Assembly (NCBI RefSeq): GCF_026241135.1
Contig: NZ_JAPFGA010000014.1
Span: forward strand, 62,001 to 126,000
Source of the DNA: Galbibacter kalidii
GTDB taxonomy: Bacteria > Bacteroidota > Bacteroidia > Flavobacteriales > Flavobacteriaceae
DNA length: 64,000 bases
Reading direction: 5' to 3'
Under the pieces are notes generated by a model that saw only the letters and a list, made by a program, of their open reading frames with translations, had not been told where the DNA came from and ran no database searches. Below, in pieces: positions 23,702 to 25,929 of this stretch. Made by a program: the position numbers and the translations under genes. Position 1 is the first letter of the stretch. Each line of letters begins with the position of its first letter.

Positions 23702-24643
23702 TTACATTAAAAATTTAGAGCTGATAGATGTATTGTGGTGTACACGATGCATAACATCGGCAAACAAATTGGCACAACTCAATACTTTTATTTTATCGCT
23801 CTGTTGTCTAATCGGAATTGAATCGGTTACGATCAATTCTGTAAGCTTCGACTTTTCTATTTTTTCATACGCATTTCCCGAAAGCAATGCGTGTGTTGTT
23901 ATGGCTCTTACACTCTTAGCCCCTTTTTCGATCATAAGGTCGGCTGCTTTTGTAAGTGTTCCGGCAGTATCGACCATATCGTCTACCAGAACCACATTTT
24001 TATTGGTTACTTCACCAATAAGCTCCATATGACCGATTATATTGGCGGCTTTTCGTTGTTTGTAACAAATCACCACATCAGACTCTAAAAACTTAGAGTA
24101 TGCATAAGCTCTTTTTGAACCTCCCATATCCGGTGAAGCCATGGTTAGGTTATCCAGATTTAAACTTTCCAAATATGGCAAAAAGATGGTCGACGCAAAT
24201 AAATGGTCAACCGGCTTTTCAAAGAACCCTTGTATTTGGTCTGCGTGGAGATCCATGGTAATGATCCTGGTGGCTCCGGCAGCTTCCAACAATTTTGCAA
24301 CGAGTTTAGCTCCTATCGGCACTCTGGGTTTATCCTTTCTGTCTTGCCTGGCCCAACCAAAATAGGGCATTACAGCTGTTATGTGTCTGGCTGATGCTCT
24401 TTTTGCCGCATCTAGCATCAGCAACATTTCCATCAAGTTTTCAGAACTTGGATTGGTAGAGCCGATAATAAAAACCCTAGCTCCCCTTATCGATTCTTCA
24501 AACGACGGTTGGAATTCCCCGTCGCTATATCTGGTAAATGCTACTTCTCCTAATTCTGCTCCAAAAGCTTTTGCTATTTCAGTTGCCAAAACTTGACTCT
24601 GAGTACAAGCAAAAATCTTTGGATCCGGTACCGAATAAGACAT
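23702..24643 (-). CDS. prs: ribose-phosphate pyrophosphokinase
   Basis: Makes PRPP for nucleotide, His and Trp synthesis. The 313-residue protein is of normal length. The divalent-cation/ATP region DLHADQIQGFF and the PRPP-binding loop VDDMVDTAGTL are present, as is the flexible-loop segment around RQDRKDKPRVPIGAK. It is transcribed from a -7 element at 24695-24702 and followed by rplY after 20 bp. Confidence 0.97.
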   Translation of the reverse strand: MSYSVPDPKIFACTQSQVLATEIAKAFGAELGEVAFTRYSDGEFQPSFEESIRGARVFIIGSTNPSSENLMEMLLMLDAAKRASARHITAVMPYFGWARQDRKDKPRVPIGAKLVAKLLEAAGATRIITMDLHADQIQGFFEKPVDHLFASTIFLPYLESLNLDNLTMASPDMGGSKRAYAYSKFLESDVVICYKQRKAANIIGHMELIGEVTNKNVVLVDDMVDTAGTLTKAADLMIEKGAKSVRAITTHALLSGNAYEKIEKSKLTELIVTDSIPIRQQSDKIKVLSCANLFADVMHRVHHNTSISSKFLM

Positions 24644-24694
24644 TTAATATCTTGTTTAGTAGTTATTTATCGTTGTGTGTTGCAAAATGAGGTG

Positions 24695-24702
24695 CAAATT
24701 TA
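24695..24702 (-). promoter_or_regulatory. -7 promoter element for prs-rplY
   Basis: On the minus strand TAAATTTG matches TAnnTTTG, 52 bp before the prs start. No TTG with ideal spacing is seen upstream, so the -33 part is uncertain. Confidence 0.45.
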
Positions 24703-24747
24703 GAAATTTATTCCAACTGTTAAAGTATAATTGTTACTATTTTTTTG

Positions 24748-24777
24748 TTGGTTGATTAAAAATATTTTTTAGTTTTG
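24748..24777 (+). promoter_or_regulatory. promoter of the tRNA-Leu/GIY-YIG locus
   Basis: TTG (24748-24750), a 19-bp spacer and TAGTTTTG (24770-24777) form a strong Bacteroidota promoter 46 bp before the first tRNA-like sequence. No comparable promoter lies between the endonuclease gene and the intact tRNA, so this promoter probably drives fragment, endonuclease and tRNA together. Confidence 0.65.
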
Positions 24778-24823
24778 CAGTCCAATTGCTCAACATGCTT
24801 TTTGAGATGGTTGGATTAACAAT

Positions 24824-24872
24824 GCTCGAGTGGCGGAACTGGTAGACCTGTCTGCCGACAGGCAGGCGCGCT
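24824..24872 (+). pseudogene. 5' fragment of tRNA-Leu interrupted by a hairpin insert
   Basis: Nucleotides 24824-24847 are identical to the first 24 nt of the intact tRNA-Leu at 25139, and the identity extends 5 bp further upstream (24819 and 25134). A 20-bp insert (24848-24867) containing CTGTCTG/CAGGCAG arms follows, then GCGCT, which matches tRNA positions 25-29. The tRNA sequence then stops and the GIY-YIG gene begins 7 bp later. This piece lacks anticodon, variable arm and T arm and cannot form a tRNA. Confidence 0.85.
24847..24866 (+). repeat. CCTGTCTGCCGACAGGCAGG hairpin inserted in the tRNA fragment
   Basis: An almost perfect 20-bp palindrome (8-bp stem with one G-T pair, CCGA loop) that splits the D-arm side of the tRNA fragment from its anticodon stem. 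From memory, similar palindromes are frequent intergenic elements in Bacteroidota. It may be part of the mobile unit or a later insertion. Confidence 0.6.
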
Positions 24873-24878
24873 AGTATT

Positions 24879-25127
24879 ATGATTACAGTATATGCAATAT
24901 CAAGTATAGAACACAATTACATATACGTTGGAATGACCAATAATCTTGAAGAAAGAATTAAAAGACATAATTCAGGAAGAGAAAAAACAACAAAGCCATA
25001 TCTTCCATATAAATTAATTTTTTCTGAAATTTGTATCGACAGAAAAGAAGCTCGTACCAGAGAAAAATATTGGAAATCTGGAATAGGCAAAGAAAAGCTA
25101 AGAGTCATCAGAGACTCTATGACATAA
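24879..25127 (+). CDS. small GIY-YIG endonuclease inserted at tRNA-Leu
   Basis: An 82-residue protein consisting of one GIY-YIG nuclease domain. The core is visible: VYA (residues 4-6) and YVG (16-18), Arg26 in NNLEERIKRH, and the Glu/Lys segment EARTREKYWKSGIGKE (57-72). It has no DNA-binding domain, as in the small UvrC-N-like proteins common in Flavobacteria. The gene starts 7 bp after a 5' tRNA-Leu fragment and ends 11 bp before the start of an intact copy of the same tRNA. That placement suggests a homing-type element which preserves the tRNA gene it enters. Confidence 0.85.
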   Translation: MITVYAISSIEHNYIYVGMTNNLEERIKRHNSGREKTTKPYLPYKLIFSEICIDRKEARTREKYWKSGIGKEKLRVIRDSMT

Positions 25128-25138
25128 AAAATGACAAT

Positions 25139-25220
25139 GCTCGAGTGGCGGAACTGGTAGACGCGCTGGATTCAAAATCCAGTTCTTTCGGGAGTGTGGG
25201 TTCGATTCCCACCTCGAGTA
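25139..25220 (+). tRNA. tRNA-Leu (CAA)
   Basis: An intact 82-nt tRNA. The acceptor stem GCTCGAG pairs with CTCGAGT (25213-25219, first pair G-T), with discriminator A25220. The anticodon stem CTGGA/TCCAG encloses TTCAAAA, giving anticodon CAA (25173-25175). There is a long variable arm and a T arm GTGGG-TTCGATT-CCCAC. CCA is not encoded. The 5' 24 nt are duplicated at 24824, upstream of the GIY-YIG gene, and a terminator follows immediately. Confidence 0.95.
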
Positions 25221-25221
25221 C

Positions 25222-25259
25222 AAAAAAGCCGGAATAAAATCCCGGCTTTTTATTTTTTT
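25222..25259. terminator. terminator after tRNA-Leu, usable in both directions
   Basis: AAAAGCCGG (25224-25232) pairs with CCGGCTTTT (25242-25250), with A-runs and T-runs on each side. It ends the tRNA transcript on the plus strand and the KDPG aldolase transcript on the minus strand. Confidence 0.8.
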
Positions 25260-25929
25260 ATCCTCTTTGTTTCTTCACAAACTCAATCGCTTCTTTCAGT
25301 TTCAGCTCAATTTGTTTATAGTCAAAAGTGCCGTCTTGTTTTTTGGTAAACACCTGTGAGCCTACCCCAACGCAGTGCACTCCGGCATCAAACCAAGGTT
25401 TCAAGCCTTCTTCACTGGCCTGTACACCGCCTGTAGGCATAATATTTGTCCACGGCATTGGTCCCTTTACAGCCTTTACAAAACCAGGGCCACCTACTTG
25501 TGTTCCAGGGAAAATCTTTACGACCTCAGCGCCAAGCTCTTCAGCATAAGAAATTTCAGTTACCGTACCACAACCCGGCATCCAGGCTACTTTTCTACGA
25601 TTACATGCCTTCGCAACTTCTTCATTGATAAGCGGAGCTACAATAAAATTCGCCCCCAACTGCATATAGATGGAAGCTGTACCAGCTTCAACTACAGAAC
25701 CTACGCCCATGATCATCCCAGGCAGATTTTCTACGACATATTTATTCACTTCAGCAAAAACTTCGTGAGCAAAATCACCTCTATTGGTAAATTCAAACAC
25801 TCGAACTCCAGCCTCATAACAGGTTTGGACTACTTTTTTACACACTTCGGAATCGCTATGATAAAAAACCGGAATAATTCCCGTTTGATACATTTCTTGA
25901 ACTACTTGTATTCGTGAATGACTAGCCAT
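25258..25929 (-). CDS. 2-dehydro-3-deoxy-phosphogluconate (KDPG) aldolase
   Basis: Class I aldolase splitting KDPG into pyruvate and glyceraldehyde 3-phosphate. The 223-residue TIM barrel carries the EFTNRG glutamate motif near residue 46, the Schiff-base lysine in EVVKIFPGTQVGGP, and PTGGV near the phosphate site. It is encoded 22 bp after the KDG kinase gene, so the pair would convert 2-keto-3-deoxygluconate to central metabolites, as in uronate (pectin or alginate) use. The rest of that pathway is not in the window. Confidence 0.92.
   Translation of the reverse strand: MASHSRIQVVQEMYQTGIIPVFYHSDSEVCKKVVQTCYEAGVRVFEFTNRGDFAHEVFAEVNKYVVENLPGMIMGVGSVVEAGTASIYMQLGANFIVAPLINEEVAKACNRRKVAWMPGCGTVTEISYAEELGAEVVKIFPGTQVGGPGFVKAVKGPMPWTNIMPTGGVQASEEGLKPWFDAGVHCVGVGSQVFTKKQDGTFDYKQIELKLKEAIEFVKKQRG

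Follow-up and report, generated by a model that had tools for sequence, protein, structure and literature searches.

The window analysed here, a stretch of 64,000 nucleotides from the flavobacterium Galbibacter kalidii (contig NZ_JAPFGA010000014.1, positions 62,001 to 126,000), carries at 24819–25221 an 82-residue open reading frame (ORF) for a GIY-YIG nuclease, set between a broken 5' copy of tRNA-Leu(CAA) and an intact copy of the same gene, all on the + strand. The two copies share an exact direct repeat of 29 base pairs (bp), 24819–24847 and 25134–25162, comprising 5 bp of leader and tRNA nucleotides (nt) 1–24. The left, broken copy (24824–24872) runs through nt 1–24, takes up a 20-bp palindrome, CCTGTCTGCCGACAGGCAGG, at the boundary of D-loop and D-stem (24847–24866), continues with GCGCT and then diverges at the anticodon stem. 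The right repeat begins the intact tRNA-Leu(CAA) (25139–25221), which is the only tRNA that ARAGORN finds in the window and which Rfam model RF00005 matches with 59.8 bits at 25139–25220. The ORF, at 24879–25127, is the one plausible gene in a unit of about 315 bp. Behind the intact tRNA an inverted repeat followed by a run of T (25223–25251), found by inverted-repeat search, is the likely transcript terminator. Upstream, at 24770–24777, lies TAnnTTTG, which we take to be the Bacteroidota-type -7 motif; it would be the native tRNA-Leu promoter, now standing before the broken copy. The repeat, the hairpin insert, GCGCT, the ORF and the intact tRNA had all been described in an earlier note on this DNA, and each holds under repeat search, ARAGORN, Rfam and Pfam. 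An intron was discarded as a candidate, cmscan giving no Rfam intron family in 24600–25400 up to an expectation value (E) of 1.

Membership of the protein in the GIY-YIG superfamily is indicated by its Pfam domain (PF01541, E 2.1e-18) and by the presence of the Tyr, Tyr, Arg and Glu that we take to be the catalytic residues of that domain. Y5, Y16, G18, R26 and E62 are invariant in an alignment of 47 sequences, namely the window protein and 46 chosen from the 80 related loci described below, three with in-frame stops being left out. The closest solved structures by profile are UPF0213 proteins (1zg2, 1ywl), SLX1 and an intron-associated endonuclease (1mk0, presumably I-TevI), and on such profiles the window protein is predicted to adopt the GIY-YIG fold. 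Against copies from the same genus the ORF shows a nonsynonymous divergence (dN) of 0.11–0.14 versus a synonymous divergence (dS) of 0.68–0.97; judged from these values, the nuclease is under purifying selection.

Occupied and empty sites within the genus

Close relatives present the same site in two states. The unit occupies this tRNA gene, in every case beside prs, in the window genome and in the same-genus genomes G002, G004 and G005, the last of which carries it twice in tandem, 313 bp apart. No nuclease at E ≤ 1e-12 is found in G001, G003 and G006, where the same prs and promoter are followed by a single tRNA start (GCTCGAGTGG...); the half copy, the palindrome and the ORF are missing from that site together. 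The earlier note had read the locus as an insertion that regenerates its tRNA, and had proposed asking whether relatives without the ORF keep the tRNA fragment: the three empty genomes have neither, which is what such an insertion leads one to expect. The intact tRNA of the window shares 99% identity with the gene that G001 and G006 have in single copy.

The spacing of the promoter indicates which copy is the newcomer. At the three empty sites 38–52 bp separate the -7 motif from the tRNA. At the four occupied sites the motif lies 51–62 bp from the half copy and 369–707 bp from the 5' end of the last copy, successive 5' ends being 313–335 bp apart at all four. From these distances the half copy emerges as the native 5' end, still in place, each insertion having pushed the renewed tRNA 313–335 bp downstream; in the window the half copy sits at the native position and the intact gene has moved by about 315 bp. 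Occupied and empty alleles thus coexist at one site in close relatives, as is characteristic of a homing element. More widely the distribution is patchy, a relative at E ≤ 1e-12 occurring in 9 of 99 genomes, our own included.

The same genomes bear on a different reading, in which the locus is the decayed remnant of a larger island or prophage and the repeats are its attL and attR. The anticodon regions of tRNA genes do serve as attachment sites, and G003 and G005 each contain a split of this very tRNA, beside prs and near nt 43, spanning some 51–68 kb (G003 contig C15, 90265–158053; G005 contig C1, 343069–394676; loci L130–L135). After the first half, a complete but different tRNA-Leu(CAA) has been supplied. 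This split is probably the work of an integrative element that uses the anticodon arm. It looks unlike the small unit: its half copies carry no hairpin, whereas the copies of the small unit are separated at the four genus sites by 313–335 bp with only the GIY-YIG gene between them, and the 315-bp unit contains neither an integrase, as a tRNA island would, nor any other recombinase. On the near-constant unit size within the genus, the missing recombinase and the different appearance of the G003 and G005 integrations, we rejected the attachment-site relic and regard it as highly improbable.

The layout in related loci

A profile of twelve relatives yielded at least 546 confirmed places in a GTDB-based collection, of which the best 80 were kept; these were ranked by likeness to the window protein, so that elements at tRNA-Leu and tRNA-Ser are favoured. 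ARAGORN reports a tRNA within 700 bp and on the nuclease's strand at 76 of the 80, the nearest being always a Leu (CAA, TAA, GAG, CAG or TAG) or a Ser (GGA or TGA) tRNA. The remaining four (L064, L091, L106 and L107) stand outside the counts of half copies, hairpins and tRNA ends given here, and by eye they too show tRNA halves with hairpins. Across the ORF, on the side away from the intact tRNA, a partial copy of that tRNA is present at 72 of the 76 loci (blastn E ≤ 0.01). Among control windows such a copy occurs in 2 of 74 placed at a distance of 500 bp and in 9 of 73 immediately past the intact tRNA, several of these last being further broken copies. Because a partial tRNA copy recurs at the matching place in 72 of 76 homologous loci and in only 2 of the 74 distant windows, chance is excluded as the source of the arrangement. 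The four without a BLAST-significant half are L085, L088, L117 and L120.

The half copy lies 5' of the ORF at 52 of the 76 loci but 3' of it at 24, and by eye several of the latter loci repeat the terminator behind the tRNA as well. This observation does not support, in the form given, the earlier note's proposal that the 5' half of the tRNA is the target. The ends of the half copies (a count that for L111 includes a match to a neighbouring tRNA) place the break better in the anticodon arm, 8 of 51 5' halves reaching nt 36–43 and 6 of 21 3' halves beginning at nt 25–29; two 3' halves begin earlier, at nt 16 and 20. A sharp insertion point could not be fixed from these ends, since half copies decay.

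The insertion with regeneration that the earlier note had proposed is supported apart from its 5'-half target, and promoter positions favour its suggestion that the tRNA is probably expressed through the ORF from a single promoter upstream of the truncated copy. In the window the motif at 24770 is the sole + strand TAnnTTTG between 24700 and 25260. Among the 51 5'-type loci, 33 have the motif no more than 60 bp from the half copy and 6 have it that close to the intact tRNA, and in none does the control stretch of the ORF contain it; a few loci have a second promoter motif near the intact copy. These positions, in the window and in many 5'-type relatives, suggest that the tRNA is often, and probably here, read through the nuclease gene.

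Hosts among the best 80 are mainly Flavobacteriaceae and other Bacteroidota, with further records from Balneolota, Ignavibacteriota, Patescibacteria, Omnitrophota and one metagenome-assembled genome (MAG) of Pseudomonadota. The Leu form, half copy plus hairpin, matches in only 3 of 296 genomes of the order, our own included, and is thus rare and patchy.

Certain loci are layered. At L078 a 5' half with acceptor strand GCTCAAG is followed by the nuclease, by an intact tRNA with GCCTTGG and, behind that, by a broken 3' copy with two hairpins; it is a mosaic, the 5' half coming from one acceptor-stem allele and the complete tRNA from another. Four 3'-type loci (L065, L085, L103 and L125) also have 5' halves with hairpins upstream. 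Taken with the hairpin-bearing half copies at L016, L180 and L201, which have none of this nuclease type in the stretch retrieved, we read these mosaics and fossils as the trace of one tRNA gene having been invaded repeatedly while its central copy remained intact. Separately, tRNA-Leu(TAG) follows broken copies, one of them with the CCTGTCTGCCGACAGGCAGG palindrome, at L016 (1197–1520, own genome, contig C70) and L180 (in G004), with none of this nuclease type.

Other targets and the nuclease tree

Searches from the window protein recover the same layout at tRNA-Arg(TCG), tRNA-Arg(ACG) and tRNA-Met/Ile(CAT), and by eye a broad Pfam sample adds versions at tRNA-Val(TAC) and tRNA-Asp(GTC). In our own genome L006 is, also by eye, a decayed tRNA-His version that lacks a hairpin. 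Within a broad GIY-YIG sample (L141–L170) ARAGORN finds a tRNA at 5 of 30 loci, one of which (L163) has no clear tie to it, so that the majority of small GIY-YIG genes do not belong to tRNA elements. Among the genes of that sample with no tRNA link, a good many have direct repeats on their flanks, several of these repeats being apparently dispersed, which suggests a wider link between the small GIY-YIG nuclease family and repeats. Contigs called viral are represented as well: of five that contain a relative, three (L191, L192 and L195 of IMG/VR) show by eye a hairpin-bearing broken tRNA copy beside the nuclease gene, one of the three at tRNA-Arg(ACG), and L195 has a second copy cut at the anticodon.

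In a tree of the nuclease, which rests on 80 columns and whose bootstrap is not settled, the Arg and Met elements cluster in a single clade (98/95) that also takes in the long rows L002 and L006 and lies apart from the Leu and Ser elements. Isotype changes 5 times on this tree, versus 8–10 times in 200 shuffles, and side changes 10 times, versus 17–25; nuclease lineages accordingly tend to keep their target class, yet they have switched sides repeatedly. A Patescibacteria MAG (L108) groups with a member of the Flavobacteriaceae (L106; 100/89), a pairing to be read with the unsettled bootstrap and possible MAG contamination in mind.

That the tRNA class follows the nuclease lineage, and that the tRNA lies on the nuclease's own strand in 76 of 80 relatives, would also be expected of an enzyme acting on RNA, whether akin to an anticodon nuclease or a tRNA-processing enzyme encoded beside its substrate. 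Such an activity leaves the half copies, the empty sites and the versions in epimerase genes (below) without explanation, however, and the solved relatives by profile are the UPF0213, SLX1 and intron-associated proteins named above; we give this reading very little credence.

Units in two sugar-epimerase genes

Related GIY-YIG units are found in our own genome within two different genes for NAD-dependent epimerase/dehydratase proteins of 366 and 322 residues (PF01370), at positions 1380–1860 of loci L002 and L003 (contigs C59 and C1, respectively). Both share an insertion point at the NAD-binding motif GAGF|IG. The upstream remnant is a truncated gene start ending in ...GGAGF or ...GVAGF and followed by the same AACCCATGAAATGATG; the complete epimerase gene downstream has a similar renewed start, MKREVSKKNKRLLITGGAGFIGSH or MKNKDSKKNKRILITGCAGFIGSH, with the pattern MKxxxSKKNKR(L/I)LITG. 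In these units the carried 5' end is recoded relative to the remnant, using different codons. The nuclease parts are identical at 289 of 306 positions (94%) and the renewed starts at 55 of 65, versus 113 of 218 alignment columns over the next 200 nt. No hairpin of 6 bp or more was found at either junction. This pair speaks most clearly for movement, a single unit being present in two non-allelic genes that have the target motif in common.

The same pair is difficult for the proposal that ordinary recombination produced a partial tandem duplication of the tRNA, with capture of a GIY-YIG gene that now serves the host and does no homing. Tandem arrays and half copies without a GIY-YIG gene do exist (L016, upstream at L125, L180, L201), and the locus beside prs is common to many Flavobacteriaceae, all of which such duplication would accommodate. 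On the other hand, the arrangement recurs with several isotypes, on either side of the ORF and in records from several phyla, it is patchy within a genus, and two 94%-identical units lie in different epimerase genes of one genome. We consider this explanation unlikely.

The hairpin in the broken copy

If any stem of 6 bp or more whose GC content is 50% or higher is taken as a hairpin, 69 of the 76 half-copy flanks contain one outside the tRNA-matched letters, and in 65 of the 76 it lies no more than 6 nt from a matched segment; of the control windows, 4 of 74 contain any such stem at all. Counting any stem raises the figure to 71 of 76, the stem in L065 and L072 being the tRNA's own anticodon arm. 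The loci without a counted hairpin are L065, L072, L085, L102, L116, L117 and L121; by eye, a palindromic insert whose loop is longer can be seen in L065, L072, L116 and L121. Within the tRNA family a hairpin in the dead copy is therefore all but constant, a regularity that the earlier note overlooked. Hairpins of the 5' type come after tRNA nt 8–9, 13–15, 17–18 or 22–24; those of the 3' type come mostly after nt 54–68, around the T-arm. When folded, the half copy of the window forms the hairpin, though its overall stability does not exceed that of shuffled sequences (z -1.28).

At the 44 Leu(CAA) loci of the 5' type, GGTAGA occurs in 40, and in 23 of these 40 the next 20 nt are exactly CCTGTCTGCCGACAGGCAGG. 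In 22 loci picked by pattern the spacer behind the palindrome averages 50% identity and the ORF 68%; the pick required the palindrome, which biases the identities of palindrome and half copy and leaves the spacer figure unbiased. A fixed sequence signal was nevertheless ruled out as the nature of the hairpin, the Asp, Val and some Arg elements carrying other sequences. Among the hairpin families at other tRNAs, or beside the CCTG type to which CCTGTCTGCCGACAGGCAGG belongs, are TCCCGA...TCGGGA, TCCCCAAG...CTTGGGGA and CCCGCCC...GGGCGGG.

A less likely but serious alternative is that these hairpins are unrelated passengers resembling repetitive extragenic palindromic (REP) sequences, moved by a Y1 transposase (REP-associated tyrosine transposase, RAYT) or another agent and without a role, the nuclease element being otherwise as described. 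Palindromes of this kind would prefer tRNA-like folds and would survive only in dead halves, insertion into a working tRNA being lethal. In our own genome the CCTGTCTGCCGACAGGCAGG palindrome is indeed dispersed like a REP, with 41 forward and 49 reverse matches at up to 3 mismatches, many of them hitting both strands, in about 70 places (versus 0 for the reversed-pattern control), and the genome has three Y1_Tnp matches. Of 20 copies of the palindrome taken from relatives, away from listed GIY-YIG hits, only 2 lie in half tRNAs (tRNA-Leu(TAG) and tRNA-Thr) and 18 lie elsewhere, none of the 20 stretches showing a match to the window protein at E ≤ 0.01. The variety of hairpin families just listed also fits passengers.

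Several observations run the other way. Nearly every half copy has a hairpin, at a frequency far from that of the control windows, yet the CCTG-type palindrome has no match in 72 of 99 genomes, and most of the other 27 (our own included) that match have few copies; in G044 the single genome copy lies inside a half tRNA-Arg. The 20-mer stays identical in those 23 of 40 loci next to a spacer of only about 50% identity, and the two tRNA halves left by the larger integrations in G003 and G005 have no hairpin. The 72 genomes without a match, set against the hairpins of most half copies, also led us to discard random genomic background as the source of the hairpins, an exclusion that is incomplete. 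As a separate observation, the palindrome in our own genome lies in longer composite repeats (for example L008, L009 and L012–L014) and is far commoner there than in the relatives searched.

Proposed mechanism

We consider it likely that the locus holds a minimal, intronless homing element that regenerates its target by supplying one end of the gene. The unit at tRNA-Leu, of about 315 bp, would then consist of the hairpin, the GIY-YIG gene and a fresh tRNA 5' end. The nuclease would cut or nick a tRNA gene of the empty type, the anticodon arm being the probable place, and the break would be repaired from an occupied allele by homologous recombination, with the half copy and the complete tRNA serving as homology arms at its two sides, independently of the flanking genome. 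The product, for which the anatomy of the locus and the empty sites speak directly, would be half tRNA, nuclease gene and complete tRNA, leaving the host a working tRNA. From its position the old promoter would drive the tRNA through the nuclease gene, and processing would release it. The dead half has a GC-rich hairpin in its D- or T-arm, and this would disable it, either by spoiling the nuclease site or by spoiling a false partner to which the remaining half of the real tRNA could otherwise pair in the transcript. In the mirror form the 3' end would be restored, at several loci together with the terminator, and related elements would treat other tRNAs in like manner, and sugar-epimerase genes by means of recoded 5' ends. 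We infer the cleavage, the immunity and the role of the hairpin from this arrangement.

Various findings weigh against this account. The regenerated tRNA is not recoded, being equal to the half copy at 29 of 29 bp and 99% equal to the empty allele, and it is hard to see how the element spares its own tRNA gene. Immunity is thus the main puzzle: with a regenerated tRNA so close to the empty target, the enzyme must recognise flanking sequence too, require a particular form of DNA or be restrained. No domain beyond the bare GIY-YIG was found in the window protein. An in-frame stop interrupts the matched ORF in 3 of 80 relatives. With prs as neighbour in 43 of the 80 loci, many in Flavobacteriaceae, much of the history may be vertical at one syntenic place. 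Host phylum gives no usable signal on the tree (10 changes, shuffles 10–11, with 67 of 78 rows from Bacteroidota and 11 from outside). Finally, hairpin-bearing half copies occur without this nuclease type nearby (L016/L203, L180, L185 and L201; for L016, L180 and L201 the absence covers the retrieved stretch only).

More tentatively, a larger generalization can be framed: that a large and unrecognised class of selfish bacterial elements, mainly in Bacteroidota and also in Patescibacteria and others, uses a lone GIY-YIG gene to cut a tRNA gene and rebuild either of its ends; that the half left over has to be kept silent by a hairpin, placed in the D- or T-arm, lest it be cut again or mispair with the true half; that rounds of invasion stack tRNA fossils around one working gene; and that on protein genes the carried ends are recoded. 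Were this true, a widespread selfish element of about 315 bp and one gene would live in essential tRNA genes with neither intron nor recombinase, and the existence of a class of small GIY-YIG genes, and of tRNA fragments, next to tRNA genes would be accounted for. It would pose testable questions, namely how a nuclease homes into a gene whose sequence it hardly alters and why the dead half of a tRNA should need a hairpin, and the loci would offer natural constructs for studying how folding and processing choose between two competing tRNA halves.

Comparison with known systems

The Seg and Mob proteins of phages are free-standing homing endonucleases, and enzymes of this kind sit beside their target and are not known to renew half of it; at the loci described here, in contrast, half of the target is renewed. 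The general scheme of intronless homing by free-standing endonucleases, as outlined in the available text of one paper (PMC3984707), is otherwise closely similar, with a bare endonuclease gene, occupied and empty alleles, and spread presumed to proceed by break repair. Titles among the references of that paper concern group I introns in tRNA anticodon loops, as in tRNA-Leu(UAA) and tRNA-fMet (PMC3984707). Some such introns contain a homing endonuclease. The anticodon region is invaded in both cases; unlike those introns, the present unit gives no intron match and undergoes no splicing, its tRNA being renewed as DNA.

Another mobile element with a GIY-YIG gene flanked by parts of its target gene is the Tsy transposon in comM, which combines tyrosine recombinases with a GIY-YIG nuclease (PMC10293859). 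According to the accessible portion of that report, the two tyrosine recombinases of Tsy are essential and the nuclease is not, whereas here the GIY-YIG gene is the only gene (PMC10293859). The hairpins recall REP/RAYT systems in that short, GC-rich palindromes are dispersed in a genome that also contains Y1_Tnp genes; the sections of those accounts available to us do not describe insertion into tRNA halves or a link to GIY-YIG genes (PMC3733652, PMC6006769). For GIY-YIG genes with broken tRNA copies we found no description in searches of the open-access PMC literature, judged by titles and the openings of abstracts and with subscription journals outside that coverage.

The closest likeness is to the mORF gene hybrids of fungal mitochondria, described in atp6 of Allomyces macrogynus and in atp6, atp9, cox2 and nad3 of Glomus sp. 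(PMC3630166). As set out in the part of that paper available to us, an endonuclease ORF, of the GIY-YIG type in atp9, is inserted in an essential gene together with a duplicate of one end; the gene thereby remains complete, and its displaced native end persists as a remnant (PMC3630166). The targets there are protein genes in mitochondria, the carried C-terminal ends are diverged and probably foreign, and no hairpin is mentioned in that part of the account (PMC3630166). An ORF next to which one end of the invaded gene is present in duplicate is likewise what 72 of our 76 loci show. A foreign, diverged carried end is found only in the epimerase elements; at the tRNA the 29 bp are identical. Unlike the mORF hybrids, the present elements invade a bacterial tRNA gene, renew either its 5' or its 3' end with a copy that is not recoded, and keep a hairpin in the remnant. 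By analogy, then, the mORF gene hybrid would be the nearest precedent, and the element in Galbibacter kalidii would represent intronless homing with regeneration of the target, in a bacterial tRNA form that appears to be new.

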